From the NCBI GenBank assembly GCA_964019415.1, contig OZ025890.1, positions 124,001 through 188,000 of the forward strand: a stretch of DNA of 64,000 bases. The letters are read 5' to 3'. Below are positions 14,285-64,000 of the stretch, piece by piece. The stretch is from Ianthella basta. Lineage: Eukaryota; Porifera; Demospongiae; Verongiida; Ianthellidae. Position numbers and translations under genes: made by a program. Each line of letters starts with the position of its first letter. Within the stretch, counting starts at the first letter, position 1. Under the pieces are notes generated by a model, which ran no database searches, had not been told where the DNA came from, and saw only the letters and a program-made list of their open reading frames with translations.

Positions 14285-14354
14285 TAGGTTTCTCCCTCCG
14301 AAACTGTTAATGCAAGGAATTTAGCGGTTATCCACACCTTTCACCTAAAGTACA

Positions 14355-14379
14355 GGTTTCCTGGTATAACTACCCTGTG
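14355..14379 (-). repeat. Right terminal inverted repeat of the transposon
   Basis: This is the inverted partner of 12972-12996. It ends ACCCTGTG and is followed by TT and then satellite sequence in the expected phase. Confidence 0.9.
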
Positions 14380-23146: not shown

Positions 23147-23381
23147 TGTGGTATACTGGCTGTGATTAACACTTAGACACTGCCAACTACTGATTGTTAC
23201 TAGATATAGTGCTTTACTATTATGGTTGTGTTAAATGCTAGCTATTCTGTATGTAGTTACTATCCCTCTAACAATGGTCTTTGTCTTGTAACTGTCTTAT
23301 GCACGTGTTCTTTATAATGATATCAGTCTTGGCACGTTGTCAGTGAACAGAATCGTCCACCGGTCGTCGACATATCGTACA
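23147..23381. mobile_element. Solo LTR with 5-bp target duplication
   Basis: A 235-bp non-repetitive insert begins TGTGGTATACTGG and ends ATATCGTACA, so it has TGT...ACA ends. GACGA precedes it (23142-23146) and follows it (23382-23386). Removing the insert with one GACGA gives GCAAGACGAGGCAAG, a normal variant of this array. TG...CA ends with a 5-bp duplication are the hallmark of LTR retroelements; no internal region is left, so this is best read as a solo LTR formed by recombination. A TATAAT stretch at 23313-23318 could be its promoter core. The family (Ty3/gypsy, Ty1/copia or other) cannot be told from the LTR alone. Confidence 0.72.
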
Positions 23382-24165: not shown

Positions 24166-24513
24166 TAGTTTTCGCGATGTAACTCTGCACCAGATGGGTT
24201 TATCAAAAGCGGTCACATGGAAAACTTCGATGATGTAATTGTGCACGGTTCTGTGTAATTTCATTTGCTTTTAGCCTCTCCCACGAAGTCGATCGGCGAT
24301 TTTCTGCGTTTTCATAGGTACTCTTGTCGGCAGCGAGTCTTCATCAAGGAAGCTGTCAGAGAAAATCTTGTTGCGCAGAATTGAAGTACAAGAATGCAGC
24401 TTCAATTACATATACAGCTTGTTTTGTGCAGATTCTATCTGCAGGATAAAGAGCAAAGAATACGAAGGACAAAAATCGGCCCGCATTGTTTACTTAGGAC
24501 ATAACCCACATGC
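24166..24513. other. Unique-sequence island inside the satellite
   Basis: About 350 bp of non-repetitive DNA interrupts the array. I find no convincing terminal repeats, target duplication or open frame. Its right border carries CATAACCCACATGC (24500-24513); the same 14-mer lies at 34925-34938, exactly at the left border of the first 21-bp array. It may be a degraded mobile element or captured flanking DNA. Confidence 0.6.
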
Positions 24514-38645: not shown

Positions 38646-40671
38646 ACTGTGCCCCGTACATGATGCACTGGATACCCTACAGGATGCACTGGATCCCCTG
38701 CAGAATGTACTGGATCCCCTACAGGATGCACTGGACCCCCTATTTGACACACTGGACCCCCTATAGGTTGCACAGGACCTTCTACACAATGCACTGGACC
38801 TCCTACATGATGCACTAGACCCCCTACAGGATGTACTGGACCCCCAATAAGGCTCACTGGTTCCCCCACAGGTTGCACTGGACCCCTTATGGGATGCACT
38901 GGACCCCCAATAGGTTGCAATGCACCCCCTACATGATGCACTGGATCCCCTACAGGATGCATTGGATCCCCTGCAGGATGCACTGGACCCCGTAAAGGAT
39001 GCACTGGACCTCCTACATGATGCACTGGACCCCCTACAGGATTTACTTGACCACCTATAGGGCGCACTGGACCCCCTATGGGTTGCACTGGACCCCTTAT
39101 GGGATGCACTGGATCCCCCACAGGTTGCACTGGACCCCCTATAGGCTGCACTGGACCCCCTACATGATGTACAAAATCCCCTATGGGATGCACTGGACCC
39201 CATACAACATGTACTGGACCCCCTATAGGTGGCACTGGACCCCCTACATGATGTACAAAATCCCCTACAGCATGCACTGGACCCCCTATAGGCTGCACTG
39301 GACCCCCTACATGATGTACAAAATCCCCTACAGGATGCACTGGACCCCCTACAACATGTACTGGACCCCTTACAAAATGCACTGGACCCCCTATAGGTGG
39401 CACTGGACGCCTTATAGGATGCAATGACCCCCTACAAAATGCACTGGACCCCCAACATGATGCACTGGACCCCTTACAGGATGTATTGGACCTCCTACAT
39501 GATGCACAGAACCCCCTACAAGATGCACTGGACCCCCTACAGGAAGTACAGAAACTCCTACAGGATGCACTGGACCCCCTACGAGGTGCACTGGACCCCC
39601 CACAGAATGCGCTGGACCCCCAATAGTTTGCACTGGACTCCTTATGGGATGCACTGGACCCCTACAAGATGCACTAGACCCTCTACAGGATGCACTGGAT
39701 CCCCTACTGGATGCACTGGACCCCCTAAAGGATGTACTGGATCCTGTACTGGATGCACAGGATCCCCTACAGGATGCACTGAACCCCCTACAAGATGCAC
39801 TCAACCCCTACAAGATGCACTGGACCCCCTACAGGAAGCACTGGACCCCTTATAGAATACACTGGATCCCCTATGGCTTGCACTGGACCCCATATGAGAT
39901 GCACTGGACCCCCAATAGGTTGCACTGCACCTCTACATGATGCACTGGATCCCCTATAGGACGCACTGGACCACCTATGGGTTACACTGGACCCCTTATC
40001 GGATGCACTGGACCCCCTACAGGATGCACTGGACCCCCTACAGGATGCACTGGACCCCCTACAGGATGCATTGGACCCCCTACAACATGCACTTGACCCC
40101 CTATATGACACAGTGGACCCCCTATAGGTTCCACTATACCCCTTATGGGATGGACTGGACCCCCTACAGGATGCACAGGACCCCTTACAAGATGCACTGG
40201 ACCCACACAGGATGCACTGGACCCCCGGCAAGATGCAATGGACCCCCCTACAAGATGCACTGGACCCCCTATAGGACGCACAGTACCACCTAAAGGTTGC
40301 ACTGGTCCCCTTATGGGATGCACTGGACCCTCTACAGGATGTACTGGACCCCCTACGAGATGCACTGGACGCCCTAAAAGATGCACTGGACACCTTGCAA
40401 ACCCTGCAAAATGAACTGCACCTCCTATAGGACGCAATGGACCACCTATACATTGCTCTGGACCCCTTATGGGATGCACTGGACCCCTACAGGATGCAAT
40501 GCACCTCCAATAGGGCGCACTGGACTCCCTATAGATTGCACTGGACCCCTTATGGGATGCACTGGACCCCCACAGGATTCACTGGACCCCTGGCAAGATG
40601 CACTGGACTCCCTATAGAACGCACTGGACCACCTATAGGTTGCACTGGACCCCTTATGAGATGCACTGATG
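38646..40671 (+). repeat. Family 2 satellite, 21-bp unit array (copy 2)
   Basis: This is the same 21-bp unit as copy 1. From about 39953 to the end it is nearly identical to the last part of copy 1 (about 36261-37092), including the rare words CCTTGCAAACCCTGCAAAAT and CCACCTAAAGGTTGC and the final junction ATGAGATGCACTGATGGC. It contains a local triplication with ATGATGTACAAAATCCCCTA (39.16-39.33 kb). Confidence 0.97.
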
Positions 40672-43600
40672 GCAAGATGAGGCAAGATGAGAGAAGATAA
40701 AGCAAGACAGGACAAGATGAGGAGAGATGAGGCAAGATGAAGCAAGATGAGGCAAGAGGAGACAAGATGCGACAAGATGAGATAAGATGAAGTGAGACGA
40801 GACGAGATGTGGCAAGATGAGGCAAGATGAGGTAAGATTTGGCAAGATGAGAAAAGATTTGGCAAGATAAGGATAGATGAGAAATGACAAGGAAAGATTT
40901 GACAAGATGAGACAAGATGAGGCAAGATCAGGACAGATTTGGAAAGATGAGGCAAGATGAGGCAAGATGAGTCAAGATGAGGCAAGATGAGGCAAGATGA
41001 GATAAGATAAGGCAAGTAGAAGCAAGATTAGGCAAGATGAGGCAAGATGAGGCAAGACGAGACAAGATGATGCAAGACGAGACAAAATGAGCAAAGATGA
41101 GGCAAGATGAGACAAGATGAGGAAAGATGAGACAAGATGAGACAAAATGAGGCAAGATGAGACAACATGAAGCAAGATAAGACAAGATGAGACAAGATGA
41201 CACAAGATGAAGCAAGATGAGGCAAGATGAAGCAAGATGAGACAAGACAAAGCAAGACGAGACAAGATGAGGCAAGATGAGGCAAGTCGAGACAAGATGA
41301 AGCAAGACGAGACAAGATGAGATAAGATGAGGCAAAATGAGGCAAAATGAGACAAGATGACGCAAGATGAGACAAGATGAAGCAAGATGAGGCAAGATGG
41401 GGCAAGATTAGGCAAGATGAGGCAAGATGAGACAAGATGAGGCAAGATGAGACAAGATGAGGCAAGATGAGACAAGACGTGGTAAGATGAGACAAGATGA
41501 AACAAGACGAGACAAGATGAGACAAAATGAGGCAAGATGAGGCACGATGAGAGAGGATGAGGCAAGATGAGACAAGATGAGGCAAGATGAGACAAGATGA
41601 GGCAAGATGAGACAAGATGAGGCAAGATGAGACAAGATGAGGCAAGATGAGACAAGACGAGGCAAGATGAGTCAAGATGAGTCAAGATGAGGCAAGATGA
41701 GATAAGATAAGGCAAGTAGAAGCAAGATTAGGCTAGATGAGGCAAGATGAGGCAAGACGAGACAAGATGATGCAAGACGAGACAAAATGAGCAAAGATGA
41801 GGCAAGATGAGACAAGATGAGGCAAGATGAGACAAGATGAGGCAAGATGAGGCAAGATGAGACAAGATGAGGCAAGATGAGGCAAGATGACACACGACGA
41901 GGTAAGATGACACAAGATGAAGCAAGATGAGGCAAGATGAAGCAAGATGAGACAAGACAAAGCAAGACGAGACAAGATGAGGCAAGATGAGGCAAGATGA
42001 GGCAAGATGAGATAACATGAGGCAAGATGAAGAAAGACGAGAAAAGATGAAGCAAGACGAGACAAGATGAGACAAGATGAGGCAAGATGAGACAAGATGA
42101 GACAAGATGAGGCAAGATGAGAAAAGATGAGGCAAGATGAGGCGAGATGAGACAAGATGAGGCAAGAAGAGGCAAGATGAGACAAGACGAGGTAAGATGA
42201 GACAAGATGAAGCAACATGAGGCAATATGAGGTAAGACGATACAAGACGAAGCAAGACGAGACAAGATGAGGCAAGATGAGACAAGATGAAGCAAGATGA
42301 GGCAAGATGAGACACGACGAGGTAAGATGACACAAGATGAAGCAAGATGAGACAAAATGAGGCAAGATGAGGCAAGACGAGACAAGATGGAGCAAGATGA
42401 GGCAAGATGAGGCAAAATGAGACAAGATGACGCAAGATGAGACAAGATGAAGCAAGATGAGGCAAGATGAGGCAAGATTAGGCAAGATGAGGTAAGATGA
42501 GACAAGATGAGGCAAGATGAGGCAAGAAGAGACAAGATGAGGCAAGATGAGGTAAGATGAGACAAGACGAGGCAAGATGAGACAAGATGAGGCAAAATGA
42601 GGCAAGATGAGACAAGACGATACAAGACGAAGCAAGACGAGACAAGATGAGGCAAGATGAGACAAGATGACACAAGATGAAGCAAGATGAGGCAAGATGA
42701 CACACGACGAGGTAAGATGACACAAGATGAAGCAAGATGAGGCAAGATGAAGCAAGATGAGACAAGACAAAGCAAGACGAGACAAGATGAGGCAAGATGA
42801 GGCAAGATGAGGCAAGATGAGATAACATGAGGCAAGATGAAGAAAGACGAGAAAAGATGAAGCAAGACGAGACAAGATGAGACAAGATGAGGCAAGATGA
42901 GACAAGATGAGACAAGATGAGGCAAGATGAGAAAAGATGAGGCAAGATGAGGCGAGATGAGACAAGATGAGGCAAGAAGAGGCAAGATGAGACAAGACGA
43001 GGTAAGATGAGACAAGATGAAGCAACATGAGGCAATATGAGGTAAGACGATACAAGACGAAGCAAGACGAGACAAGATGAGGCAAGATGAGACAAGATGA
43101 AGCAAGATGAGGCAAGATGAGACACGACGAGGTAAGATGACACAAGATGAAGCAAGATGAGGCAAGATGAAGCAAGATGAGACAAGATGAGGCAAGATGA
43201 GGCAAGACGAGACAAGATGGAGCAAGACGAGACAAGATGAGGCAAAATGAGGCAAAATGAGACAAGATGATGCAAGATGAGACAAGATGAAGCAAGATGA
43301 GGCAAGATGAGGCAAGATTAGGCAAGATGAGGTAAGATGAGACAAGATGAGGCAAGATGAGGCAAGAAGAGACAAGATGAGGCAAGATGAGGTAAGATGA
43401 GACAAGACGAGGCAAGATGAGACAAGATGAGGCAAAATGAGGCAAGATGAGACAAGATGAGGTAAGATCAGACAGATCAAGAAAAGATGAGGCAAGATGA
43501 CGCAAGATGAGACAAGATGAAGCAAGATGAGGCAAGATGAGGCAAGATTAGGCAAGATGAGGCAAGATGAGACAAGATGAGGCAAGATGAGGCAAGATGA

Positions 43601-46600
43601 GACAAGATGAGGCAAGATGAGGCAAGATGAGACAAGATGAAGCAAGATGAGACAAGACGAGGCAAGATGAGACAAGATGAGGCAAGATGAGGTAAGATGA
43701 GACAAGATGAGACAAGATGAGGTAAGATGAGACAAGATGAGGTAAGATCAGACAAGATCAAGAAAAGATGAGGCAAGATGAGGCAAGACGAGACGAGACG
43801 AAGCAAGACGAGACAAGATGAGGCAAGATGAGGCAAGATGAGACAAGATGAGGCAAAATGAGGCAAGATGAGTCAAGATGAGGTAAGATCAGACAGATCA
43901 AGAAAAGATGAGGCAAGATGACGCAAGATGAGACAAGATGAAGCAAGATGAGGCAAGATGAGGCAAGATTAGGCAAGATGAGGCAAGATGAGACAAGATG
44001 AGGCAAGATGAGGCAAGATGAGACAAGATGAGGCAAGATGAGGCAAGATGAGACAAGATGAAGCAAGATGAGACAAGACGAGGCAAGATGAGACAAGATG
44101 AGGCAAGATGAGGTAAGATGAGACAAGATGAGACAAGATGAGGTAAGATGAGACAAGATGAGGTAAGATCAGACAAGATCAAGAAAAGATGAGGCAAGAT
44201 GAGGCAAGACGAGACGAGACGAAGCAAGACGAGACAAGATGACACAAGATGAAGCAAGATGAGGCAAGATGAGGCAAGAGGAGGCAAGAGGAGGCAAGAT
44301 GAGGCAAGATGAGGCAAGATGAGGCAAGATGAGGCAAGATGAAGCAAGATGAGGCAAGATGAGACAAGGCGAGGTAAGATTAGGCAAGATGAGACAAGAT
44401 GAGGCAAGATGAGGCAAGATGAGGCTAGACGAGGCAAGATGAGGCAAGATGAGGCAAGATGAGACAAGATGAGACGAGATGAAGCAATACGAGGAAGATG
44501 AGTAAAGAAAAAGCAAGACGAGACAACATAAGGTAAGATGAGGCAAGATGAGGCAAGCTGAGACAAGATGAGGAAAGATGAGACAAGATGAGGTAAAATG
44601 AGGTAAGATGAGACAAGATGATGCAAGATGAGACAAAATGAGTAATGATGAGGCAAGATGAGACAAGATGAGGCAAGACGAGACAAGATGAGACAAGATG
44701 AAGCAAGATGAGACAAGATGAGACAAGATGAGGTAAGATGAGACAAGATGAAGCAAGATGAGGCAAGATGAGGCAAGATGAAGCAAGATGAAGCAAGATG
44801 AGATGAGACAAGATGAAGCAAGATGAGGCAAGATGAGGCAAGATGAAGCAAGATGAGACAAGATGAGACAAGATGAGACAAGATGAGACAAGATGAGGTA
44901 AGACGAGACAAGACGAAGCAAGATGAGACAAGATGAGGCAAGATGAGGCAAAATGAGACAAGATGAAGCAAGATGAGACAAGATGAAGCAAGATGAGGCA
45001 AGATGAGGCAAGATGAGGCAAGATGAGAAAAGATGAGGCAAGATGAGACAAGATGAGGCAAGATGAGGCAAGATGAGGCAAGATGGGGCAAGATGAGACA
45101 AGATGAAGCAAGATGAGATAAGATGAGGCAAGATGAGACAAGATGAGACAAGATGAATCAAGATGAGGCAATATGAAACAAGATCAGACCAGATGAAGCA
45201 AGATGAGGCAAGATGTGACAAGATGAGGCAAGATGAAGCAAGATGAGGCAAGATGAGGCAAGAGAAGATATCATGAGGCAAGATGAAGAAAGACGAGACA
45301 AAATGAAGCAAGACGAGACAAGATGAGACAAGATAAGGCAAGATGAGACTAGATGAGGCAAGATGAGACAAGATGAGGCAAGATGAGGGAAGATGAGACA
45401 AGATGAGGCAAGATGAGGTACGTAGATGAGGAAAGATGAGGCAAGATAAAGCAAGATGAGACGAGATGAGACGAGATGACACAAGATAATGCAAAATGAA
45501 ACAAGATGAGGCAAGATGAGGCAAGATGAGACAAGATAAGACAAGATGAAGCAAGATGAGGCATAATGAGACAAGACGAGGTAAGATGAGACAAGATGAA
45601 GCAAGACGAGAAAAAATGAGACAAAATGAGGCAAGGTGAGGCACGATGAGAGAGGGTGAGGCAAGATGAGAGAATATGAGGCACGATGAGGAAAGATGAG
45701 GCAAGATGAGACAAGATGAGTTAAAATGAGGTAAGATGAGACAAGATGACGAAAAACGAGACAAAATGGGACAAGATGAGGCAAGATGAGACAAGATGAG
45801 GCAAGATGAGACAAGATGAGGCAAGATGAGGCAAGATGAGACAAGATGAGGCAAGATGAGACAAGATGAGGCAAGATGAGGCAAGATGATGCCAGACGAG
45901 ACAAGATAAAGCAAGACGAGACAAAATGAGGCAAGATGAGGCAAGACGAGACAAGATGAAGCAAGACGAGACAAGATGAGATAAAATGAGGCAAGATGAG
46001 ACAAGATGAGGCGAGATGAAACAAGATGAGGCAAGATGAGACAAGATGGGGCAAGATGAGGCAAGATGAGGCAAGATGAGGTAAGATGAGACAAGATGAG
46101 GCAAGATGAGACAAGATGAGGTAAGATCAGACAAGATCAAGAAAAGATGAGGCAAGATGAGGCAAGACAAGACAAGACGAAGCAAGACGAAGCAAGATGA
46201 GACAAGATGAGGCAAGACGAGACAAGATGAAGCAAGACAAGACAAGACAAGATGAGGAAAGATGAGGCAAAATGAGACAAGATGATGCAATATGAGACAA
46301 GATGAGGCAAGATGAGACAAGATGAGGAAAGATGAGACAAGATGATGCAAGACGAGACAAAATGAGTAAAGATGAGGCAAGATGAGACAAGATGAAGCAA
46401 GATGAGACAAGATGAGGCAAGATGAGACAAGATGAGACAAGATGAAGCAAGATAAGGCAAGATGAGACAAGATGAGGCAAGATGAGGCTAGACGAGGCGA
46501 GATGAGGCAAGATGAGGCAAGATGAGACAAGATGAGACGAGATGAAGCAATACGAGGAAAATGAGTAGAGAAAAAACAAGACGAGACAACATGAGGTAAG

Positions 46601-49600
46601 ATGAGGCAAGATGAGGCAAGCTGAGACAAGATGAGACAAGATGAGGAAAGATGAGACAAGATGAGGTAAAATGAGGTAGGATGAAACAAGATGATGCAAG
46701 ACGAGACAAAATGAGTAAAGATGAGGCAAGATGAGACAAGATGAAGCAAGATGAGACAAGATGAGGCAAGATGAGGCAAGATGAGGCAAAATGAGACAAA
46801 ATGACGCAAGATGAGATAAGATGAGGCAAGATGAGGCAAGATGAAGAAAGACGAGACAAGATGAAGCAAGACGAGACAAGATGAGACAAGATGAAGCAAG
46901 ATGAGGCAAGATGAGACAAGATGAGGCAAGATAAGGTAAGATGAGAAAAAATGAGACAAAATGACGCAAGATGAGACAAGATGAGGCAAGACTAGGCAAG
47001 ATGAGGCAAGATGAGACAAGATGAGGCTAGATGAGGCAAGATGAGGCAAGATGAGGCAAGATGAGACAAGATGAGGCAATATGAAACAAGATCAGACAAG
47101 ATGAAGCAAGATGAGGCAAGATGAGACAAGATGAGGCAAAATGAAGCAAGATGAGGCAAGATAAGGCAAGATGAGGCAAGATGAAGAAAGACGAGACAAG
47201 ATGAAGAAAGACGAGACAAGATGAGACAAGATGAAGCAAGATGAGGCAAGATGAGACAAGAAGAGGCAAGATGTGGCAAGATGAGACAAGATGAGGCAAG
47301 ATGAGGCAAGATGAGACAAGATGATGCAAGATGAGGCAAGTGGAGACAAGATGAGGCAAGATGAGGTATGATGAGACAAGATTAGGCAAGATGAGACGAG
47401 ATGAGGCACGATGAAGCAAGATGAGACAAGATGAGAAAAGATGAGGCAAGATGAGACAAGACAAAGCAAGACGAGACAAGATGAAACAAGATGAGACAGG
47501 ATGAGGCAAGATGAGACAAGATGAGATAAGATGAGACAAGATGAGGCAAGATGAGACAAGATGAGGCTAGATGAGGCAAGATTAGGCTAGACGAAGCAAG
47601 ATGAGACAAGACGAAGCAAGATGAGACAAGACGAGATAAGATGAGGCAAGATGAAGCAATATGAGGCAAAATGAGACAAGATGACGCAAGATGAGAGACA
47701 AGATGAGACAAGATGAGGCAAGATGAGGCAAAATGAGGCAAAATGACGCAAGATGAGAGACAAGATGAGACAAGATGAGACAAGATGAGGCAAGATGAGA
47801 CAAGATGAGGCTAGATGAGGCAAGATTAGGCTAGACGAAGCAAGATGAGACAAGACGAGACAAGATGAGGCAAGATGAAGCAATATGAGGCAAAATGAGA
47901 CAAGATGACGCAAGATGAGAGACAAAATGAGACAAGATGAGGCAAGATGAGGCAAAATGAGACAAGATGACGCAAAATGAGACAAGATGAGGCAAGTTTA
48001 GGCAAGACGAGACAAGATGAGGCAAGATGAGGCAAGATGAGACAAGATGAGGCAAGATGAGACAAGATGAGGGAAGATGAGGCAAAATGAGACAAGATGA
48101 AGAAAGATAAGACAAGATGATGCAAGATGAGACGAGATGAGGCAAGATGAGACAAGATGAGGCAAGATGAAGCAAGATGAGGCAATATGAAACAAGATCA
48201 GGCAAGATGAAGCAAGATGAGGCAAGATGAGACAAGATGAGGCAAGATGAAGCAAGATGAGGCAAGACGAGGCAAGATGAGGCAAGATGAAGAAAGACGA
48301 GACAAGATGAAGCAAGACGAGGCAAGATGAGGCATGATGAGACAAGATGAGGCAAGATGAGACAAGATGAGGCACGATGAAGCAAGATGAGACAACATGA
48401 GGCAAGATGAGACAAGATAAGACAAGACAAAGCAAGACGAGACAAGATGAAGCAAGATGAGACAAGATGAGGCAAGATGAGACAAGATGAGACAAGATGA
48501 GACAAGATGAGGCAAGATGAGACAAGATGAGGCAAGATGAGGCAAGATTAGGCTAGACGAAGCAAGATGAGACAAGACGAGACAAGATGAGGCATGATGA
48601 GGCAGGAAAAGACAAGATGAAGCAAGACGTGACAAGATGAACCAAGATGAGGCAAGATGAGGCAAAATGAGACAAGATGAGGGAAGAAGAGACAAGATGA
48701 GGCAAGATGAGGCAAGATGAGGCAAGATGAGGCAAAATGAGACAAGATGAGGCAAGATGAGACAAGATGAGGCAAGATGAGGCGAGATGCGGCAAGATGA
48801 GGCAAGATGAGGCAAGATGAGACAAGATGAGGCAAGATGAGACAAGATGAGGGAAGATGAGGCAAAATGAGACAAGATGAAGAAAGATAAGACAAGATGA
48901 TGCAAGATGAGACAAGATGAGGCAAGATGAGACAAGATGAGGCAAGATGAAGCAAGATGAGGCAATATGAAACAAGATCAGGCAAGATGAAGCAAGATGA
49001 GGCAAGATGAGACAAGATGAGGCAAGATGAAGCAAGATGAGGCAAGACGAGGCAAGATGAGGCAAGATGAAGAAAGACGAGACAAGATGAAGCAAGACGA
49101 GGCAAGACGAGGCAAGATGAGACAAGATGAGACAAGATGAGGCAAGATGAGACAAGATGAGGCAAGATGAGGCAAGATGAGGCATGATGAGACAAGATGA
49201 GGCAAGATGAGACAAGATGAGGCACGATGAAGCAAGATGAGACAACATGAGGCAAGATGAGACAAGATAAGACAAGACAAAGCAAGACGAGACAAGATGA
49301 AGCAAGATGAGACAAGATGAGGCAAGATGAGACAAGATGAGACAGGATGAGACAAGATGAGGCAAGATGAGACAAGATGAGGCAAGATGAGGCAAGATTA
49401 GGCTAGACAAAGCAAGATGAGACAAGACGAGACAAGATGAGGCATGATGAGGCAGGAAAAGACAAGATGAAGCAAGACGTGACAAGATGAACCAAGATGA
49501 GGCAAGACGAGGCAAAATGAGACAAGATGAGGGAAGAAGAGACAAGATGAGGCAAGATGAGGCAAGATGAAGCAAGATGAGGCAAGATGAGACAAGATGA

Positions 49601-51185
49601 GGCAAGATGAGACAAGATGAGGCAAGATGAGGCGAGATGAGGCAAGATGAGGCAAGATGAGGCAAGATGAGACAAGATGAGGCAAGATAAAGCAAGATGA
49701 GACGAGATGATGATAGATGAGGCAAGATGAGACAAGATGAAGCAAGATGAGACAAGATGAGACAAGATGAAGCAAGATGAGGCAAGATGAGGCAATATGA
49801 AACAAGATCAGACAAGATGAAGCAAGATGAGGCAAGATGAGACAAGATCAGGCAAGATGAAGCAAGATGAGGCAAGACGAGGCAAGATGAGGCAAGATGA
49901 AGAAAGACGAGACAAGATGAAGCAAGATGAAGAAAGACGAGACAAGATGAAGCAAGATGAGACAAGATGAGACAAGATGAGGCAAGATGAGGAAAGATGA
50001 GACACGATGAGGCAAGATGAGACAAGATGAGGCAAGATGAGGCAAGATGAGACAAGATGGTGCAAGATGAGGCAAGTTGAGACAAGATGAGGCAAGATGA
50101 GGCATGATGAGACAAGATTAGGCAAGATGAGACGAGATGAGGCAAGATGAAGCAAGGTGAGACAAGATGAGAAAAGATGAGGTAAGATGAGACAAGAAGA
50201 GGCAAGATGAGGCAAGATTAGGCTAGACGAGGCAAGATGAGGCAAGATGAGGCAAGATGAAGCAAGATGAGGCAAGATGAGGCAAGATGAGACAAGATGA
50301 GGCAAGATGAGACAAAATAAGGCAAGATGAAGAAACGTGAGGCAAGATGAGACAAGATGAGGTAAGATGAGGTAAGATAAGACAAGATGAAGCAAGATGA
50401 GACAAGATGAGGCAAGATGAGACAAAATAAGGCAAGATGAAGAAACATGAGGCAAGATGAGACAAGATGAGGTAAGATGAGGTAAGATAAGACAAGATGA
50501 GGCAAGATGCGACAAAATAAGACAGGATGAAGAAACATGAGGCAAGATGAGACAAGATGAGACCACATGAAGCAAGCCGAGACAAGATGAGGCAAGATGA
50601 GACAAGATGAGGCAAGATAAAGCAAGATGAGACAAGATGAGACAAGATGAAGCAAGATGAGACAAGATGAGGCAAAATGAGGCAAGATTAGGCTAGACGA
50701 GGCAAGATGAGACAAGATGAGGCAAGATGAGGCAAGATGAGACAAGATGAGGCAAGATGAGGCTAGACGAGGCAATATGAGACAAGATGAGGCAAGATAA
50801 AGAAAGATGAGACAAGATGAGACAAGATGAGGCAAGATGAGACAAGATGAGGCAAGATGAGGCAAGATTAGGCTAGACGAGGCAAGATGAGACAAGATGA
50901 GGCAAGATGAGACAAGACGAAGCAAGAGGAGACAAGATGAAGCAAGATGAGACAAGATGAGGCAAGATGAGGCAAAATGAAATAAGATGAGGCAAGATGA
51001 GACAAGATGAGGCAAGATGAGACAAGATGAGACAAGATGAGGCAAGATGAGGCAAATGAGGCAAGATGAGACAAGATGAGGTAAGATGAGGCAAGATGAG
51101 ACAAGATGAGGCAAGATGAGGTAAGATGAGGCAAGATAAAGCAATATGAGACAAGATGAGACAAGATGAGGCAAGATGAGACAAG
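40672..51185 (-). repeat. Family 1 satellite, 10-bp unit array (long block)
   Basis: 10.5 kb of GCAAGATGAG, ACAAGATGAG, GCAAGATGAA and ACAAGACGAG monomers. Higher-order blocks are visible: an 820-bp duplication (marker GATAACATGAGG at about 42009 and 42829), a 421-bp duplication (marker GATCAGACAGATCAAG at 43466 and 43887), and a 0.78-0.85-kb duplication (48181-48960 with 48961-49800, marker GGCAGGAAAAGACAAG). Minus-strand frames of up to 687 codons cross it and are repeat artefacts. Confidence 0.97.
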
Positions 51186-51199
51186 GGCTCAAAGACTCT

Positions 51200-54100
51200 C
51201 TACAAGATGCACTGGACCCCTTACAGGATGCACTGGACCCCCTACGAGATACACCGGACCCCTACAAGATGCACTGGACCCGCCAAGAGATACACAGGAC
51301 CCCCTACGACATGAACGGGACCCCCTACAGGATGCATTGGATCGCCTACATGATGCACTGGACACCCTACAGGATGCACTAGACCCCTACGAGATGCACT
51401 GGACCACCTACAAGATGCACTAGACCCCCTACGAGATGCATTGGACCCCCTTCAAGATGCACTGGTCCCCTTACGACATGCACTTGACCCCCTAAGCCAT
51501 ACACTGGAATCCCAACGAGATGCACTGGACCCCCTATAAGATGCACTGGACCGCCTACGAGATACACCAGCCCCCCTACGAGATGCAATGGCCCCCCTAC
51601 AAGATGCAATGGACCCCCTACGAGATGCACTGGACCCCCTACGAGATGCACTGGACCTCTTACGAGATGCACTGGACCCCCTTCGAGATGCACTGGACCC
51701 CCTACGAGATGCACTGGACCCCCTACGAGATGCACTGGACCCCCTATGAGATGCACCGGACCCCCTATGAGATGCACTGGACCCCCTACGAGATGCACTG
51801 GACCCCCTACAAAATGCACTGGACTCCCTAAAAGATTCAGTGGACAACCCTAAAGGATGCACTTGACCCTGTACAAGATGCACTGGACCCCCTACATGAT
51901 TCACTGGACCCCCTACGAGATGCACTGGACCCCTACGAGATGCACTGGACCCCATACAAGATGCACTGGAGATCACTAAAGGATGCACTTGACCCCCTAC
52001 AAGATGCACTGGACCCCCTACGAGATGCACTGGACCCCCTACGAGATGCACTGGACCCCCTACGACTTGCACTGGACCACCAACGAGATACACTGGACCC
52101 CCTACGAGATGCACTGGACCCCCTTCAAGATGCACTGGACCCCCTACGAGATGCACTGGATACCCTACGACATGAACTGGACCACCTTCGAGATGCACTG
52201 GACCCCCTACAACATGCAATGGACCCCCTACGACTTGCACTGTACCCCCAACGAGATACACTGGACCCCCTACGAGATGCACTGGACCCCCTTCAAGATG
52301 CACTGGACCCCCTACAAGATGCACTGGACCCCCTAAGAGATGCACTGCACCCCCTACGACATGCACTGGACCCTCTACGAGATGCACTGTACCTCCTCTA
52401 GATGCTCTGGACCCCTGACGACATGCACTGGACCTCCTACAAGATGCTCTGGACCCCTTACAAGATGCACTGGACAACCCTAAAGGATGCACTTGACCCA
52501 CTACAAGAAGCACTGAACCCCCTAGATGATGCACTGGACCCCCTACGAGATGCACTGGACCCCCTACTAGATGCACTAGACCCCCTTCGAGATGCACCGG
52601 ACCCCCTACGACATGCACTGAACCCCCTACGACATGCACCGGACCCCTACGAGATGCACTGGACAACCCTAAAGGATGCACTTGACCCTCTACAAGATGC
52701 ACAGGACTCCCTACGAGATGCACTGGACCCCCTACGAGATGCACTGGACCCCTTACGAGATGCACAGGACTCCCTACGAGATGCACTGCCCCCCCTACGA
52801 GATGCACAGGACCCCCTTCAAGATGCACTGGAACCCTTACGACATGCACTGGACCCCCTACGAGATGCACTGGACCCCCTACGAGATTCACTGGACCCCA
52901 TAAGAGATGCACTGGACCCCCTACGAGATGCACTGGACCACCTACAAGAAGCACTGTACCCCCTACAAGATGCACTGGACCCCCTACTAGATGCACTGGA
53001 CCCCCTTCGAAATGCACTTGACCCTCTACGAGAAGCACTAGACCCCCTACATGATGCACTGGACCCCCTACGAGATGCACTGGACCCCCACGAGATGCAC
53101 CGGACCCCATAAGAGATGCACTGGACCCCCTTCGAGATGCACTGGATCCCCTACGAGATGCATTGGACTCCTACAAGATGCACTGGACCCCCTACGAGAT
53201 GCACTGGACCCCCTTCGAGATGCACTGGACCCCTACAAGATGCACTGGACCCCCTACGAGATGCACTGGATCCCATACAATATGCACTGGACCCCCTATG
53301 AGATGCACTGGACCCCCTACGAGATGCACTGGACCAGCTACAGTACGAGATTCACTGTACCCCCTTCGAGATGCTCTGGACCCCTTACGATATGCACTGG
53401 ACCACCTGCATGATGCACTGGACCCCATACGAGATGCACTGGACCCCCTACGAGATGCACTGGACCCCTACGAGATGCACAGGATCCCTACGACATGCAC
53501 TGGACCTCCTTGGAGATGCACTGGAACCCTTACGACATGCACTGGACCCCCTACAAGATGCACTGGGCCCCTTAAAGATACACTGGACAACCCTAAAGGA
53601 TGCACTTGACCCTCTACTAGAAGCACTGGACCCCCTACATGATGCACTGGACCCCCTACGAGATGCACTGGACCCCCTACGAGATGCACTGGACCCCCTA
53701 CAAGATGCACTGGACCCCTTCAAGATGCGCTGGACCCCTTACGACATGCACTGGACCCCCTTCGAGATGCACTGGACCCCCTACGAGATGCACTGGACCC
53801 CTACGAGATGCACTGGACCCCCTTCGAGATACACTGGACCGCCTACGACATGCACTGGACAGCCTACTGGATGCACTGGGCCCTGTACAAGATGCACTGG
53901 ACTCCCCTAAAGGATGCACTTGACCCCTTACAAGATGCACTGGACACCCTACAAGATACACTGGACACACTACAAGATGAACGTGACCCACTACAACATC
54001 CACTTGACCCCATACAAGTAGCACTAGATCCCCTACAAATGCACCCGGACCTCATACAGGATGTATTGGACCCCCTAAGAGATCCACGAGTCCCCTACAG

Positions 54101-55205
54101 GATGCACTGAACCCCTTACAAGATGCAGTGGATCCCCTACAAAATCCTCTGGACCCCTACGAGACACACTGGACCCGCCAAGAGATGCACTGGACCCCCT
54201 ACGACATGAACTGGACCCCCTACAGGATGCATTAGACCTCCTAAAGGATGCACTTGACCCCTTACAAGATGAACTAGACCCCCTACATCATGCACTGGAC
54301 CCCCTACGAGATACACCGGACCCCCTATGAGATGCACTGGACCCCCTACGAGATGCACTGGACCCCCTACGAGATGCACTGGACCCCCTACGAGATGCAC
54401 TGGACCCCCTACAAGATGCACTGGACCACCTACAGGATGCACTGGACCCCCTACAGGATGCACTGGACCCCATACAGGATGCACTGGACCCCCTACAGGA
54501 TGCAGTGGCCCCCTTACAAAATGCACTGTACCCCCTACAGGATGCACTGGACCCCCTACAAGATGCACTGTACCCCCTACAGGATGCACTGGACCCCCTA
54601 CAAGATGCACTGGACCCCATACAGGATGCACTGGACCCCCTACAGGATGCACTGAACCCCCTACAAGATGCACTGGACCCCCTACAGGATGCACTGGACC
54701 CCCTACAAGATGCACTGGACCACCTACAAGATGCACTGGACCCCCTACAAGAGGCACCAGACCACCAACAGGATGCACTGGACCCCCTACAGGATGCACT
54801 GAACCCCCTACAAGATGCACTGGACCCCCTACAAGATGCACGGGACCCCATACAGGATGCACTGGACCCCCTACAAGATGCACCAGACCACCAACAGGAT
54901 GCACTGGACCCCCTACAAGATGCACTGGACCCCCTACAGGATGCACTGGACCCCCTACAAGATGCACTGGACCCCATACAGGATGCACTGGACCCCCTAC
55001 AAGATGTACCAGACCACCAACAGGATGCACTGGACCCCCTACAAGATGCACTGGACCCCATACAGGATGCACTGGACCCCCTACAAGATGCACCAGACCA
55101 CCAACAGGATGCACTGGACCCCCTACAGGATGCAGTGGACCCCTTACAAGATACACTGTACCCCATGAACAATGCATTGGACCTCCAACAAGATGCAATG
55201 GACTT
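51200..55205 (+). repeat. Family 2 satellite, 21-bp unit array (copy 3)
   Basis: 4 kb of the 21-bp unit, with CTACGAGAT as the dominant variant from 51.2 to 54.4 kb and CTACARGAT from 54.4 to 55.2 kb. The last part is the most homogeneous, with a higher-order unit holding ACCAGACCACCAACAGGAT repeated near 54.76, 54.88, 55.00 and 55.10 kb (about 110-120 bp apart). Confidence 0.97.
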
Positions 55206-56805: not shown

Positions 56806-58015
56806 ATGGCGGCCAGCGCGAACCTGCTAGGTTGCTTCTGGGCACTTAGTTCTACGTCTGATTCCGAACGCCTAGCTGCCGCCAAGGATATTTTGGAAAT
56901 ACTTCGCACAAAAGAGGTTTCCTTAGATTCATTGTGTTCATCAGTTGGTGCTGCTCTAAGAAACTGAGTTCTTTCCTTACAGGACGACCTGCAGTATTGC
57001 GTAGAGCGACTGGTCCGAGGCCTGGGGTCCAACCGCAAAGGGGCACGTCAAGGGTTCTCGATAGCTCTAACTGAGCTGCTTTCATCTTTCCCGCGTGTTA
57101 CAGCTGGCCAGGTGCTTGCCCTGGTAGACAGGCACTTGCGGCCCGCTGGCAGCTCCAAGGTTGAGGTGTGTGCCCTTGTGTTGGTACGATTTGACTGATC
57201 TACGTGTAGTTGACAGCAAGTGATGTTGTGCCTCTCAGGAGGAGAGAGGGTGCCTCTTCGGCCAAGTGTTTGCGCTGATGTGCCTGCTGAGGTCAAGGTG
57301 TCTGCCTGCTAAGGTGGGTTCATCCAACACTGTCCCTTGCTTCCCCTCTACTGGACAACTTACATGTGCTTTGCTCAGGATGGCCTCAGGGTGTTACGGC
57401 AGTTGACAGCACTGAGTGGCAGAAAAGCCTACCTGTGTCAGGTCTGCTGTGTGGCCTCAGGACAGGCTTTACTGCAGGTCTGCTAGGCTGCATCACACTG
57501 CAGCCCAGCCATCTACTTCACCATGTGCTGTGCTATCCATACAGCTCTCAGAGGGGAAGGCGACTTGCTCAGCTGTCCTTGGTGAGCTGTCGTCAGCTCT
57601 GGAGGGAGGCTGGGCAGCATGCTCCCCCGAGGCACTGTACCTGGTGCTGGCCTTGGAGCAGGTCTATGCAGGGACGGTGAGGGAGGACTACAGCCGGGTA
57701 GACTGCTACGGGTGGAGATGTTGTATGTTTACCTTATCCCCAGCAGGAGTTGTCTGCAGGACTGAAGAAATTACAGTGGGGTGATAAGCCAGTGATGCAT
57801 GAAGCCAATCTCCCGGCTCTGTCCAGGTTGCTGCACGGTGTCACTGACCCACACCACATAGTGTGGCCTGTCCTGGTGGCTGCTGCACACAGTTCAAATA
57901 GTTTCTCCAAGTTCTGGAACTTGGTTGTCAATGGTACGCCTCTCCCTCTGTTGTTGGGTCAGTACTGTTGCAGTAGTGCTACCCACCCACCCTCACCTCA
58001 CCTCGCCCTGGTACA

Positions 58016-58047
<32 letters not shown>

Positions 58048-60399
58048 CCTGGTACAGCCCTCACCTCACCCTCGCCCTCACCCTGGTACAGCCCTCACCT
58101 CACCCTCACCCTCACTCTGGCCCCACCCTTCCCCTGCCTCAGATGATCTCTGCCAATCCTCCGCTCGACACCAGTGTGTGGCCCTCCACATGGTGGAGCT
58201 ACTCCTCCCGGACCTGGCCTCCCCCGAGGTCCATGTTGTTTTCTCCCCCAATCTCCTCCGCTGCCTGGCAAGTGGCCTCACCACCAAGGACAGTGATGTG
58301 AACGCTGCAGCAGGCCACCTGGTGAGTGCAGCGCACAGTGACTCCCGCAGCCACAGTGCTGCTACGCAGACCCTTTGTGCACACAGGTCAGGTCAATGTG
58401 TGAACACTTTTCATGTGCTCACAAGCAAGCCAGCCGGGTTGCCATGGTGATGCAGCTGATTGGTAGGCATGGCTGGAAGCGCTTCCATAGCAACCCTGAT
58501 GTACTTTCCTTGTTACAACTGTGTGAGCAGGTGGGCCGGTCAAAGCACACTTGTACACAGACACAATCAGCATCTGTTATTGGACGTCAGGGAGAGTGGT
58601 CTTCCTGCCCAGATTGACTGTGATGACATCCTTGAGTACCTCACATCACTGTTGGGCTTCCTCTTTGAATGTGAAGATGACTCCTACAGAAAGTCTGTGA
58701 CAGAGAGCAGTTTGGAGCAGGTGTCTCTGCTGCTGCAGCACCCCATGATGCGCAGCAAGCACAACAGAGGGACCCTGGTGGCCTGTGCCTGCTTCCTCCT
58801 CCTGATGGCAGGCTTTGGGGGCGTTGACCAACCCACCAAGGACTTGCAAGTGAAGTGGATGCCACAAAACATTCCTTCTTCATTTGACGTAGGTGCTCAC
58901 GTCAGCCAACTTGCAAGGCAGAAACTCACAGCTACTCTCACAGACATCATCCGGAGTGGACGGGCTCACTCAGCTGAGCTGTGCTTCCTCCCACTGAGAG
59001 ACGTTGTGCTGTTTGCCGAGGTGAGTCCTGACTGCACTGGCACTGCAGAGCGTACTGTGACCGTTGTGCTGTGTTGCATGCAGGCTTTGCTGAGCAGTGG
59101 CAACCACACCCACCTAGCCCTCAGTGCCTCGTGGGACAGAGAACAGCAGTCGGCATGGCGCTCAGCGTCCCTCATCATCCGACAATTCTCTCCCACTGGC
59201 AGCACCCAGCTGGAGAGTGCGCTGAGCCTGCTGCATACGAATGCTGCCCTGCACCTGCTGCTAGACCCCACCAGCAAAGCTGCTCCTGGAATGGTGGAAG
59301 AGCTGGCAGTGATGCAATATGATGTAGCAGCTGTGGCAGGGCCTGCGAATGGTGCATCTACCTGGTGTGAGGTGCTGACAGACATGCTGCTGAGTCTGCT
59401 CTGCCAGCCGTCCTCCCTCCATCGCGAGGTTGCTAGCCAGGCATTTCGAATGACCATGCCTCACCAGACCCAGCAATCACTGGACCTGTTGGTTGCAGTA
59501 CGTTTACATTTGTCAGATGTAGTTGTGCATAGACCATGTGAAGATGATCTAGGACTAATCTTCACACTTTTGAATCATGGGAACTATCACCGTGGCACAT
59601 CTAGTGTGTGTGTGTGTGTGCGTGTGTGCAGGTGGTGGACCCCAGACGTACAGAGGAACTGAACCAGTTTGTCATGCTAAATGAGGAAATGGATGCTGAG
59701 GAGGGAGGCACCGGTGGAGAAGGGAAAGAACTTGGTTTTCAAATGGAGGAGGGGTCCGACTCCAGTGAGGAATCTGACTCTTCCCATAATAGCCAGGAAG
59801 TTGATCAGCTGCACGACTTTCGGGACAGTCTCAAGACTGCCCTTGGCCCGGCCGCACTTGAGATGGACTCTGTCAGTTGTAGTACCTGCCACTGCACTGC
59901 ACTGCTTCATGTACACCATTATTACCTGTAGGGGGAGTCCCCTAGTGACCTGAGTGATGATGCAATGATGCTTCAAGACTCCGCTTTGTCGGCTGTGCTT
60001 CGCTCTCACCTCCACTCAAAGGGAACCCAGCAAAGGAGAAAAGGTGTGCTAACTGGGGTAGTGGTGTGATGTGGTGGGGCTGAGGTCAACGGTGCCTGTC
60101 CTCCACCAGCAGAGCAAGCACATCTTATAGTTAACTTCCAGTTGAGGGTGCTGAAGTTAGTGGAGGCCTTCGTCAAGCGTCAACCGTCATCACCATGGCT
60201 GCTAGATATCATCATTCCCCTAGTTAGGTTAGCCCTCAGAGATCAAGCGTCACTGTCCCCTCGAGCCACTGCCATTGCCGTGCGCATCTGCAAAGGCAAG
60301 GTCCCAGGGGGGAGCAGCCAAGTAGCACTGAGTGCACTCAAGGAGGCCATGAAGCTCCTGTACAAAGGTGAGGTTGGTGGTGGACACCACATGCACACG

Positions 60400-60445
<46 letters not shown>

Positions 60446-60893
60446 AATGGCTGCCATGATCTGAGATCTGCTGCCTTACTTCCTGTTTTATGCTCACAGT
60501 ATCCTCTTCAGAAGTGTCTCATGTCCTCAATGTGGCGGTCATGTGGCTGCTGAAGGTGGTGTGCCATGATGGCCAGGAGGTTAGTGCAGCCCACGAAGGG
60601 CTCGTGTGTGTGTGTGTGCACATGCATGGTTGGCTTTCCCTCTGTACTCTTCCTTGTACAATGTGCTGGTGTGCTGGGACCAATAGTCCCCAGCTGTGGC
60701 CGAGTCAGTGGAGCTCTTTAGAGGGCTGCTGTGGGATTTTGTTACAAAAAAGTGAGTTGTGTGTGCTGCAGCAGTGACATGGTGTTGCGAGCTACCACCA
60801 CCATGGCCACTGTGTACAGGAACTGCACTGTCAGTTTTGGTCTGTTTCAAGCTCTCTTTCAACGTCATGTGGTGAGTCTGCAATTTGTTAGTG

Positions 60894-60989
<96 letters not shown>

Positions 60990-61720
60990 AACACCATTCC
61001 CCTCGCCCTCCATTGGTTTAGCACTTGGCCTGGTTACTAATCAGTGATGTTATGGAAGCCTCAGCAAAGGCAGCCAGCTCCTTCAGGAAGGCAAGCAGTT
61101 TGATGAGTGCTCAGAAGCACCTGCCTGTTTACACAGGTAGCATCCTCCTGCACAGGTTCAGTGCTACCAGCTGATGCAGCTGGTTGTCAGTGGGACTGCA
61201 CCAGACGAGGCCCAGCAATCCCACCTCTCAGACATGGTGGCAGCAGCAAATGAGTGTGTGATGGAGGTTGGTACACCCCTGGCAACACCGTAAGGTTGCA
61301 CACATGCTACTCCTCTGGGGCTGTCTCTACAGGTGACTGTGGAGGCCAGGACTAACTCGCAGCTCAACAAGGCGCAGCTCAAGCTGGTCACAGAGGCGCT
61401 GCTGCTGCTCAAGTTGTGTGCTCCTCTATCTAGCATTGCCACGGTGAGGCAGCTGCAGGGCTAGCTCGGAGTAGTTCCACATACACACCATGCAATTCTG
61501 CATGTATCTATTTAATGCACTTTGTTCATGTCGCCTGCAGATCGCCCCCTCATTGGCTGTCACTGTGAAGGAGGTTATGCAGTGTGAGTGCACTCAGAGG
61601 GCAAAACTGCTCCAGAACACTTGCTCTGAGCTCTTAGACCTCCTGAGGAGGTCACACGTGCCACACCACAGCTCATCGCTGGACGGTACACCAAAGGCAA
61701 AGAGAAAGAAGCACAACTAG
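56806..61720 (+). CDS. MYBBP1A: MYBBP1A / DNA polymerase V (Pol5) family nucleolar protein, 20 exons, 1069 aa
   Basis: Exons: 56806-56916, 56983-57165, 57239-57313, 57379-57477, 57545-57676, 57747-57933, 58143-58321, 58387-58530, 58613-59020, 59084-59497, 59632-59871, 59932-60043, 60110-60367, 60500-60579, 60687-60751, 60820-60871, 61022-61090, 61156-61266, 61333-61443, 61541-61720. All phases agree and sum to 3,210 nt. The product matches the DNA_pol_phi family: residues 38-70 contain ERLVRGLGSNRKGARQGFS, exon 10 has WCEVLTDMLLSLLCQPSSL, exon 11 is the acidic Glu/Ser segment, exons 12-13 hold DDAMM and FQLRVLKLVEAFVKRQP, and the tail is basic (KAKRKKHN). Family proteins are HEAT-like nucleolar factors in rRNA synthesis and ribosome assembly; vertebrate MYBBP1A also binds transcription factors. 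At 1069 aa it is near yeast Pol5 and shorter than human, whose basic tail is longer. Intron 17 is GC-AG. The exon 8/9 border is the least certain. Confidence 0.9.
58015..58130. repeat. CCCTCA-type tandem repeat in MYBBP1A intron 6 (G-quadruplex-prone on minus strand)
   Basis: The intron contains runs of CCTCACCCTCACCCTCACC interspersed with CCTGGTACAGC. The template strand therefore carries many GGGTGA runs, which fit the four-G-tract pattern of G-quadruplexes. This intron (209 nt) is the longest in the gene. Confidence 0.8.
60401..60441. repeat. CA microsatellite in MYBBP1A intron 13
   Basis: A (CA)n tract of about 20 repeats lies within the intron 60368-60499. Confidence 0.9.
60895..60987. 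repeat. TG microsatellite in MYBBP1A intron 16
   Basis: A (TG)n tract of about 46 repeats with one TATG interruption fills most of intron 60872-61021. Confidence 0.95.
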
Positions 61721-61811: not shown

Positions 61812-63894
61812 TTAAGTGGAGTCGGTGAGCTCTGTATAGGGAGTGGCCTTTTCTTCATCCCCATCCATGGAGTAGATAGAGAGGTTGGACGCTGCATGCG
61901 TGAGTGGCATGCGGGCGCCGCCCACCAACACAGAGATGTCAAGCTCCTCATTGTCCCCCTGCTCGTCACCAGAGCCCAGCTGGCTCTCATTTAAGGGGGG
62001 GAGGTAAATGTGAGTGGGCTCCATGGCTGCCCGAGTGTCCTGCAGGGTAGGCAGGCAGCGCCGAACACCACGTGAGCGCTTTCCACTGGACTTATCCTTG
62101 CCATCAGGGGAAGGGCGGGGCTCCAGCAATGATCCGTCCATCTGGTCCACAGAGGGCAGTTCAACTGACGGCTGTGGGGCACTCTGCCTCCTCCACTCCT
62201 GTGGAAGGAATAATATGGCAGAGCTAGCTCTGTGAGCAGCCTCACCTAATGTGCTGCCAATGCCAAGCTCGCTCACCTGGAGGAGAGGCGTCCTCCTGCC
62301 GCTGTGTGCTGTGCCATCCAGGAGGTGTTGTGGAGGGCGGAACAAGTGAGCCACACCTTGGACATCAAGACTGCCAGGAGCACCTTCTTCCATCAACTGC
62401 AGGTTCACATGCTTGCTCGGGTCATCAATCATCTGCTCAAAGTCGTTCTGCAAACTACCAAAGAATGGTCGGTCGATGGGGGAGTGCTGCCAGCATCGCT
62501 GCAGCAGGAAGTACCTGCAGAAACAGGAGAGGGATGACACTTGCTTCCCCTCAGCCTGCAGCAGTGACCACCTCCAGCACTGTGACACACAAGGTCATAC
62601 ATACATGTCACTGCTGCAGCACCCAAGCATGTTCGGCCTCCTGCCTGCTCCAATCTCGTGGTAGATGTCACTAGGACTGATGTCCGGGAAGGGGGGTGCC
62701 CCTACATAAAGGACAGATACATGAACTCATGCAGTCTAATGCCGTTGGCTGGTTTGATGGTTGGCTGCCTACCTAGCGTGCACACCTTGTACACCAGGAT
62801 GCCAAAGGACCACCTGCAATAGGTGCAAAGGGAGTGAAAGGGGCTCACCAGTCCGAGGTGCACTGCACGCAGTGGCCACAACTCACACATCACTCTTGAC
62901 TGAGAAGCGCTTTCCTTGCATATTCTCTGGAGCCATGTCTTCCAAGTAGTGAGCTCGGTCTGTGACCATGTAATAGTGGCCCTCGAGAGGCACACCAAAG
63001 CTGCCCACCTTGGCCTGCAGGTCTGCTGTGAGGAACACGGCACGCGTGGACAGACTGCGATGGGTGATGCCAAAGTGGCTGAGGAAGGCCATCCCTCGGC
63101 ACACTTGCAGGATGATGTACATCAGGCTGCCTGCAACATACGCAGTGTAGCTGCCCTCCAGGGTGCTGGAGGCAAACTCAATGTACCAATTTGGAATGGG
63201 ACCTTTCTGCAGGGCAACTAGGAACTGGTCCACGGTGCCACATGGCATGAGTTCAATACACAGGAACAGAGGGGATGAAACGGAGCTTCCCCCATAGAAC
63301 TGAAGAATGTTTGGGTGGCCAGAGGGATCCTGAGAGAGGAGACAGGGTGGCAAGAGGAGGTAGGCAAGACCAGTGAACAGGCGAGAGTGTGTGCAGCGTA
63401 GTTATGTGTTGCATGGACTGTTTACCCTCTGTTGACTCATCCGGTAGCGCTCTATCTCTGTGACCAGCTCAGACCGCCCCAGTTCTGAGTGGTTGTCTGC
63501 ACAAGGGGAAGGTTGTACCCCATGTTGCACAACATCTCCCGCATGTTGCACAACACCCTGGTTGCACCCCCATACCTTTGAGTGTCTTGATGACCACCTC
63601 CTGGTAGCCCAGGTGCGCACGGTGCACCAGGGTGAACGTGCCACGACCCAATAACTCCGTAATGACTATGTCCTTGTACAGAATGGGGCTGGACACACCC
63701 GTCCGTCCGTGATCTGTACACACTTCGTCATCCCCGAACTGCCCCACCCTCAAGAGGCGTACCCGTTGTTTCCTGCGCCAGTGCACGACGGCCAAGCAGA
63801 CCGCTCCGGCCATGGCGAACAGGAGCGCGAGGGCCACTCCATCCACCACGATCACTACTAGTTCCCATGTGTGAAACTGTGCGACAGTCGGAGC
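61812..63894 (-). CDS. Receptor tyrosine kinase-family pseudokinase, 3' part (7 exons, 531 aa visible)
   Basis: Exons in transcript order: 63894-63576, 63496-63426, 63329-62887, 62813-62773, 62701-62605, 62514-62277, 62198-61812; phases agree. The visible protein starts at an acceptor (TCTGTTCTGCAG), so signal peptide and ectodomain lie beyond the window. Residues 12-37 are a membrane segment, followed by the stop-transfer HWRRKQR. The kinase domain has a glycine loop GRGTFTLV (83-90), beta-3 Lys in VVIK (103), HPNIL, hinge LFLCIELMPCG, APE (263-265), DVWSFG and RCWQHSPIDRP. The catalytic HRD is HRS (220-222), the loop Asn is Ala (227), and DFG is SFG (240-242). Both catalytic aspartates are therefore lost, and it should be a pseudokinase that may still bind nucleotide or scaffold. 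The tail has Tyr motifs IYLPPL, IYSMD and PYTEL, possible SH2 docking sites. The frame is intact, so it is not a decayed gene. Confidence 0.87.
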
Positions 63895-64000
63895 CTGCAG
63901 AACAGACGACGGCATTTATACGTGCAGCCCAGTAGCACGAACGGACATCAGCAGAGCGCCAGTACTGCTGGTCCATTGGTTCAGGCTAACTTGCGTTGTG
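63895..64000 (-). other. Intron 5' of the transmembrane exon of the RTK-like gene
   Basis: This is read as intron because of the strong acceptor at its left end. An alternative is an in-frame ATG at 63915 (MPSSVLQ then the exon), which would give a receptor with almost no ectodomain; this is less likely. A second minus-strand open frame here (63728-63976) is out of frame with the kinase. Confidence 0.5.

Follow-up and report, generated by a model that had tools for sequence, protein, structure and literature searches.

A Receptor-type Tyrosine Pseudokinase Gene with a Very Short Predicted Extracellular Segment in the Sponge Ianthella basta

Organization of the Locus

The window analyzed in this study is a stretch of 64,000 nucleotides (C23:124001–188000) from the 209-Mb, 96-contig genome of Ianthella basta. 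Positions 1–55203 are nearly all minisatellite, with arrays of 35-, 10-, and 21-bp units (Table I), and the sign of the GC skew flips between the 4-kb windows on either side of 20 kb, approximately at a switch between arrays. A MYBBP1A-like gene, recognized by a DNA_pol_phi match in one ORF and containing short introns and (GT)n tracts, occupies positions 57000–61720 of the plus strand. It lies downstream of the gene under study, a tyrosine pseudokinase gene on the minus strand (61812–63894), and is convergent with it, the two stop codons being about 90 bp apart. The contig was also read for 27.5 kb past the end of the window (L009–L011, where L009 represents the same gene as L001). On this side, an ANKFY1-like gene on the same strand, with BTB, ankyrin, and FYVE segments (the FYVE match being sub-threshold at 25.8 versus 27.8 bits), ends near 65683 and leaves a gap of 1.6 kb.

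The seven pseudokinase exons in the window join in phase to give 531 codons followed by a TAA stop. All six introns have GT-AG boundaries and lengths of 71–96 bp, and their phases (1, 0, 2, 1, 2, and 0) maintain a single frame, so that the seven exons are intact and in phase as originally predicted. As a count for the whole gene, seven is most likely one too few, because an eighth exon, the first, lies mostly beyond the window. Residues are numbered here according to the resulting eight-exon model, a protein of 560 residues with a tail of about 180 residues. Intron 6, the last, is open in frame, and its retention would add 26 residues; it may be kept in some transcripts, giving a possible isoform.

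Table I. Positions of the pseudokinase gene features and the minisatellite arrays, in window coordinates (extended past 64000 for exon 0)
Feature	Position	Strand	Content
Exon 0 (signal-type)	63991–64077 extended = L009:2492–2578; window part 63991–64000	-	MWAALVVYAGLVAVASA and the next 12 residues
Exon 1	63576–63894	-	Remaining short ectodomain, transmembrane helix, juxtamembrane region, glycine loop, β3 VVIK
Transmembrane helix in exon 1	63784–63861	-	Residues 41–66
Exon 2	63426–63496	-	αC, Glu149 retained
Exon 3	62887–63329	-	β4 to APE and SDV; 443-nt catalytic exon
HRS (exon 3)	63054–63062	-	Ser251 at 63054–63056
Ala256 (exon 3)	63039–63041	-	Replaces catalytic-loop Asn
Phe258 (exon 3)	63033–63035	-	Replaces Leu
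SFG (exon 3)	62994–63002	-	Ser269 at 63000–63002
Exon 4	62773–62813	-	41-nt mini-exon WSFGILVYKVCTLG, phase 2 in, phase 1 out
Exon 5	62605–62701	-	αG region
Exon 6	62277–62514	-	RCW..DRP αH-αI, start of tail
Intron 6	62199–62276	-	78 bp, open in frame (ORF 61812–62594)
Exon 7	61812–62198	-	C-terminal tail with Tyr497, Tyr541, and Tyr553; TAA at 61812–61814
35-bp minisatellite unit	1–18876		
10-bp minisatellite unit	18897–33231, 40671–51185 (with 37098–38645)		CAAGATGAGG
21-bp minisatellite unit	34945–37095, 38652–40668, 51200–55203		

Extracellular Segment and Membrane Helix

The product of exon 0, MWAALVVYAGLVAVASAQGNVSNDTDTTQ, resembles a signal peptide, after which come two N-glycosylation sequons (NVS and NDT). 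The junction of exon 0 with exon 1 is in phase 0 and uses a weak, non-ideal donor (CAA^GTTAGC). The codon score of exon 0 is only 0.002, yet this is the best of its three frames; both this score and inspection by eye underlie the assignment of a signal peptide. In the model, the mature extracellular part comprises about 22 residues. A start at the alternative Met at 63915 would give a protein that has no signal peptide and likewise no ectodomain. The hydrophobicity profile contains a single strong segment (residues 41–66), and a weaker segment (1.61) falls within the kinase domain. Asp47 sits within the hydrophobic transmembrane stretch, and Gly or Ala is present at positions 48, 52, 56, 60, and 64; five small residues spaced at i+4 were obtained in 0.8% of shuffles of the segment's own composition (a frequency of 0.008 in one post-hoc test). 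The protein therefore has the build of a receptor pseudokinase, with a signal peptide or anchor (by eye), a single transmembrane helix, and an intracellular pseudokinase domain. By build, the name of receptor appears to be correct, and no clear ligand-binding part is visible.

The 1.6-kb gap contains 18 ORFs of at least 35 codons, 16 of which, including that of the signal exon itself, were scanned against Pfam (the two others have 36 codons each). No domain above cut-off was found in these 16 ORFs, including the family-specific ectodomains of ERBB3, PTK7, RYK, ROR, and Eph. Weaker matches are present in four ORFs, to PspD (0.18), Papilloma_E5 (0.079), DUF7395 (0.069), and an EGF-like domain (0.0015). 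The EGF-like fragment (65363–65512 of L009, minus strand, E 0.0015, 18.7 bits versus a cut-off of 27) is the sole hint of an ectodomain among the gap ORFs scanned, and its 50-codon ORF has a codon score of −0.36, which is non-coding by this measure. Positive codon scores were obtained for 4 of the 18 gap ORFs, for example 64227–64376 and 64491–64628. With an extracellular part of about 22 residues in the model and upstream space in which the scan found no domain above cut-off, neither the co-receptor role first proposed, as in ERBB3 or PTK7, nor that of a receptor for a ligand is supported.

Catalytic Residues and Kinase Fold

The pseudokinase domain belongs to the tyrosine kinase superfamily, matching PF07714 over positions 2–257 of the 258 in the profile with 165.4 bits (cut-off 23.1, E 2e-48). 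Among the best 60 of 1603 distinct PDB sequences with E ≤ 0.001, the best matches are the kinases of EGFR, RET, and FGFR. The replacements described in the original prediction are all present at the codon level: HRD is changed to HRS (CAT CGC AGT), the catalytic-loop Asn to Ala256 (GCC), and DFG to SFG (AGC TTT GGT), so that the Asp residues of both motifs are Ser and the Asn is also lost. Loss of even one among the β3 Lys, the HRD Asp, and the DFG Asp places a protein with the receptor tyrosine pseudokinases. To arrive at the codons for Ser251, Ala256, and Ser269 from the usual ones takes two or more nucleotide substitutions in each case, which makes a sequencing slip very unlikely. An alternative 443-nt exon carrying HRD and DFG was considered and excluded because the introns flanking the catalytic exon are only 96 and 73 bp; the genomic flanks have no room for a hidden exon of this kind. 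Lys132 of β3, Glu149 of αC, Glu294 of APE, the DVWSFG sequence, and Arg368 of DRP are retained. The Lys, APE, and DVWSFG had been predicted to be retained, and the only adjustment is that the VAIK motif itself reads VVIK. The glycine loop, also listed as retained, is so only in part (G-R-G-T-F-T), its third Gly being Thr117.

Ten active single-exon tyrosine kinases from the same genome were aligned with the window protein, the aligned L022 being excluded as a pseudokinase, and 42 columns are invariant among the ten. The window protein retains 31 of these, including most of those of the fold type. The 11 changes are A130V, L192V, A236C, D251S, A253S, N256A, L258F, D269S, a Pro replaced by a gap, E316K, and P346L. 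With replacements at the catalytic Asp, at the Asn, and at the metal-binding Asp, the sequence strongly implies that phosphotransfer is absent.

Three residues contact the adenine ring of ATP in an active kinase: a Val of β2, an Ala of β3, and, following the catalytic loop, a Leu or Met (PMC12721161, PMC4718504). The corresponding residues of the pseudokinase are Val119, Val130 (Ala to Val), and Phe258 (Leu to Phe), of which the latter two are bulkier. Phe at the Ala position (KSR1, RAF, PKC, and Akt) or at the Val position (PKC and Akt) blocks ATP with retention of the closed fold, and Phe in the C-spine gives stable, inactive kinase folds (PMC12721161). In KSR1, Ala-to-Phe blocked ATP but Ala-to-Val did not, and Phe at a site like Leu173 is absent among the mutants described in the available part of this source (PMC12721161). 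Since Phe258 is at the third adenine contact, filling of the pocket is a proposal; nucleotide binding is not reliably readable from sequence (PMC4718504). The third site of the regulatory spine (Glu149 + 4) would be Tyr153, which is non-aliphatic and lies where the alignment of αC is gapped. It would speak against a standard regulatory spine, unless the gapped alignment misplaces the site.

The tail contains three tyrosines. Docking motifs for Tyr had been predicted here, but none of YxxM, YxN, and NPxY was seen when the tail was read by eye, and that part of the prediction was not upheld.

Relatives within the Genome

In a genome search that scores the best candidates only, the transmembrane exon and the tail matched their own locus alone. 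A second, near-identical copy of the catalytic exon was rejected because, apart from the exon itself, the three matches ranking highest by E-value show identities of 30, 35, and 32%. As far as these searches reach, the gene appears to be single-copy. One scan each of the bacterial/archaeal and the viral contigs gave no relatives, as expected for an animal gene. Two DNA patterns for an active site of silicatein type also gave no match, a result that carries no weight either way. The genome contains an expansion of RTK-type catalytic exons, with at least 150 matches (150 scored of 673 first-look candidates), many of them clustered, on C2, C4, C7, C10, C11, C13, and others. One of these exons, with HRD and DFG intact, is separated from the pseudokinase gene by about 43 kb and has the same orientation (L062, C23:230600–231500).

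The window gene shares two features of exon structure with this expansion, a phase-2 intron at SDV^W and the 41-nt mini-exon that follows it. The boundary is found in all 10 RTK exons compared (L057 and L059–L066, chosen partly because the match ended at SDV). The mini-exon is common to four of the 10 (L057, two copies in L061, and L062, which has a GC donor), and its start is seen in L066; L063–L065 are too short to read, and L059 and L060 gave none within 2.2 kb. All 10 exons retain HRD, Asn, and DFG, and their identity with the window exon is 21–26 of 65–67 residues. The SDV^W and mini-exon introns may predate the expansion, as vertebrate RTKs suggest, so that they indicate kinship with RTKs rather than a recent origin within the expansion.

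The pattern HRDLA[CS]RN occurs 137 times in the genome, and also 137 times when any codon is allowed at the Asp (reversed controls, 0 and 1); no otherwise normal loop has therefore lost its Asp, loops as altered as that with HRS escaping the pattern. For DFG, the pattern matched 157 times with Asp, against 0 in the reversed control, and 195 times when any codon was allowed, against 69 in the reversed control, so that the additional 38 are within chance and there is no excess of losses. In a set of 35 distinct loop-to-DFG segments, which misses intron-split loops (many of L042–L053) as well as L024, L026, and L033, whose readings differ, the 34 segments other than that of the window have the HRD Asp in 34, the Asn in 33, and the DFG Asp in 33 cases, and Leu or Ile occupies the site of Phe258 in every one of the 34. 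The genome has other impaired kinase genes too, so that the mere presence of a pseudokinase is nothing unique. These are (i) L007/L023 (C20:4484933–4485907), with HGD, Ser for Asn, and DLG; (ii) L008/L022 (C17:5557674–5558546), with HKD and NFG; and (iii) the nearby kinase-like genes L024 and L026 (C1:9613718–9634907), a separate pseudokinase type with HRE for HRD and SGFH for DFG. The tyrosine kinases of (i) and (ii) presumably resemble PTK7 or RYK.

Evidence for a Functional Gene

In all eight exons, the frame of the model outscores the other two by a codon score trained on 18 single-exon kinases from this genome (6883 codons). This score separates coding from non-coding sequence only roughly, since 2 of 3 control ORFs from the ANKFY1-like region, which cross introns and a repeat, fell below zero. 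In a substitution-only simulation of neutral drift, 1 of 2000 kinase domains remained stop-free at 37% identity and 139 of 2000 at 0.1 substitutions per site. This rarity suggests that the frame was under selection during most of its divergence, which falls short of proving selection after the loss of catalysis. Together with the intact frame over eight exons and the 31 of 42 invariant columns, these results agree with the earlier view of the gene as a pseudokinase and not a wrecked pseudogene, and the sequence supports a functional gene for a non-catalytic kinase fold rather than a relic.

A gene in decay, in which catalysis was lost recently and the frame has yet to be broken, would be compatible with the tail that lacks a match elsewhere in the genome and with the 11 altered columns. 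However, the three two-step codon changes are accompanied by no stops, frameshifts, or broken splice sites, many fold-type invariants are retained, the highest codon score of every exon is in its own frame, and few neutral domains stay stop-free even at 0.1 substitutions per site. We therefore regard decay as improbable.

Comparison with Known Pseudokinases

Eight receptor tyrosine pseudokinases are described in humans, and a short extracellular segment is found only in STYK1, which has 22 extracellular residues and no reported ligand, according to the available part of a 2026 review (PMC13259870). The placement of STYK1 and Lmr is dealt with in PMC8662651. STYK1/NOK and the window protein have in common a very short extracellular segment, a single transmembrane helix, and a pseudokinase domain in which the β3 Lys is retained. 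In contrast, STYK1 has HKD with retained Asn (HKDxxxxN), GLG for DFG, and Arg at the αC position (PMC13259870, Table 2), whereas the window protein has HRSxxxxA, SFG, and the αC Glu, and so lacks the motifs of the STYK1 family. The likeness of the window gene to human STYK1, greater than that to ERBB3 or PTK7, is one of build. Its catalytic loop is nearest to that of EphB6, which also has HRS and has lost the Asn and the DFG Asp (PMC13259870, Table 2). EphB6 differs in having HRSxxxxS, RLG, Gln for the β3 Lys, Arg at αC, and a full ephrin-type ectodomain (PMC13259870). HER3/ERBB3, PTK7, and RYK are likewise receptor-type kinase folds with impaired catalytic residues that act as allosteric partners or co-receptors (PMC13259870), but they have ligand-binding ectodomains of their own. 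The original comparison with ERBB3 and PTK7 thus fits the catalytic loss and does not fit the architecture. None of the eight human proteins, as given in the available part of the review, combines HRS, Ala, and SFG with retained Lys and Glu (PMC13259870). Among the titles listed in literature searches, none described an ectodomain-poor protein of this design in a sponge or similar animal, which is not proof of absence.

Proposed Role and Alternatives

We consider it somewhat more probable than not that the gene is functional and encodes a 560-residue type I protein, one that associates through its transmembrane helix and serves active tyrosine kinases as a scaffold or allosteric partner without catalysis of its own. 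The domain would hold an active-like shape through the Lys132-Glu149 pair, the regulatory-spine residues His249 and Phe270, and Glu294-Arg368. The adenine pocket would be narrowed by Val130 and Phe258, and we propose that the closed form may for this reason persist without ATP. Since no clear ligand-binding part is visible, we further propose that the transmembrane helix, through its small residues, and the pseudokinase domain would bring the protein to its partners. The pseudokinase would then act on active tyrosine kinases as an allosteric or scaffolding partner, and these would phosphorylate it. Association through the membrane helix and trans-phosphorylation by active partners are known for receptor tyrosine pseudokinases (PMC13259870). 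A bolder form of the proposal, which we regard as unlikely, is that many active receptors share the protein as their allosteric activator or hub, the protein being ectodomain-less, nucleotide-independent, locked by its spine in an active-like state, and gathered by its helix, a design like that of STYK1 reached independently.

An inhibitory role is a close rival of the scaffold or allosteric partner, even if its own probability is low. A dominant-negative brake that titrates active kinases or their substrates, with no stimulation, would be expected to retain the kinase fold, lose the catalytic residues, and be anchored in the membrane, as is the case here. C-spine mutants of PKC are dominant negative, but those of Akt1 are not (PMC12721161), and the present evidence fits an activating scaffold equally well. 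Slightly less probable still is that ectodomain exons further upstream make the protein a ligand-binding receptor or co-receptor of the ERBB3, PTK7, or RYK kind. The weak donor of the signal exon, the gap ORFs with positive codon scores, and the sub-threshold EGF-like fragment point in this direction, and the last raised our estimate by a small amount; against it, the signal-type exon adjoins the transmembrane exon in phase, the same-strand ANKFY1-like exons leave only 1.6 kb, and the ORFs scanned there gave no domain above cut-off. An unusual kinase with residual activity through other residues is very improbable. Lys132 and Glu149 are retained, and metal-free autophosphorylation occurs in some pseudokinases, judging by the title of a reference on TRB2, but both Asp residues and the Asn have been lost together and the adenine pocket is altered.

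If the scaffold or allosteric role is correct, the gene would represent a second ectodomain-poor design, with different catalytic losses and possibly a natural filling of the C-spine, in an RTK-rich genome of animal type. It would permit a direct test of whether a kinase fold that lacks both ligand input and catalysis is by itself retained as a part of signalling.
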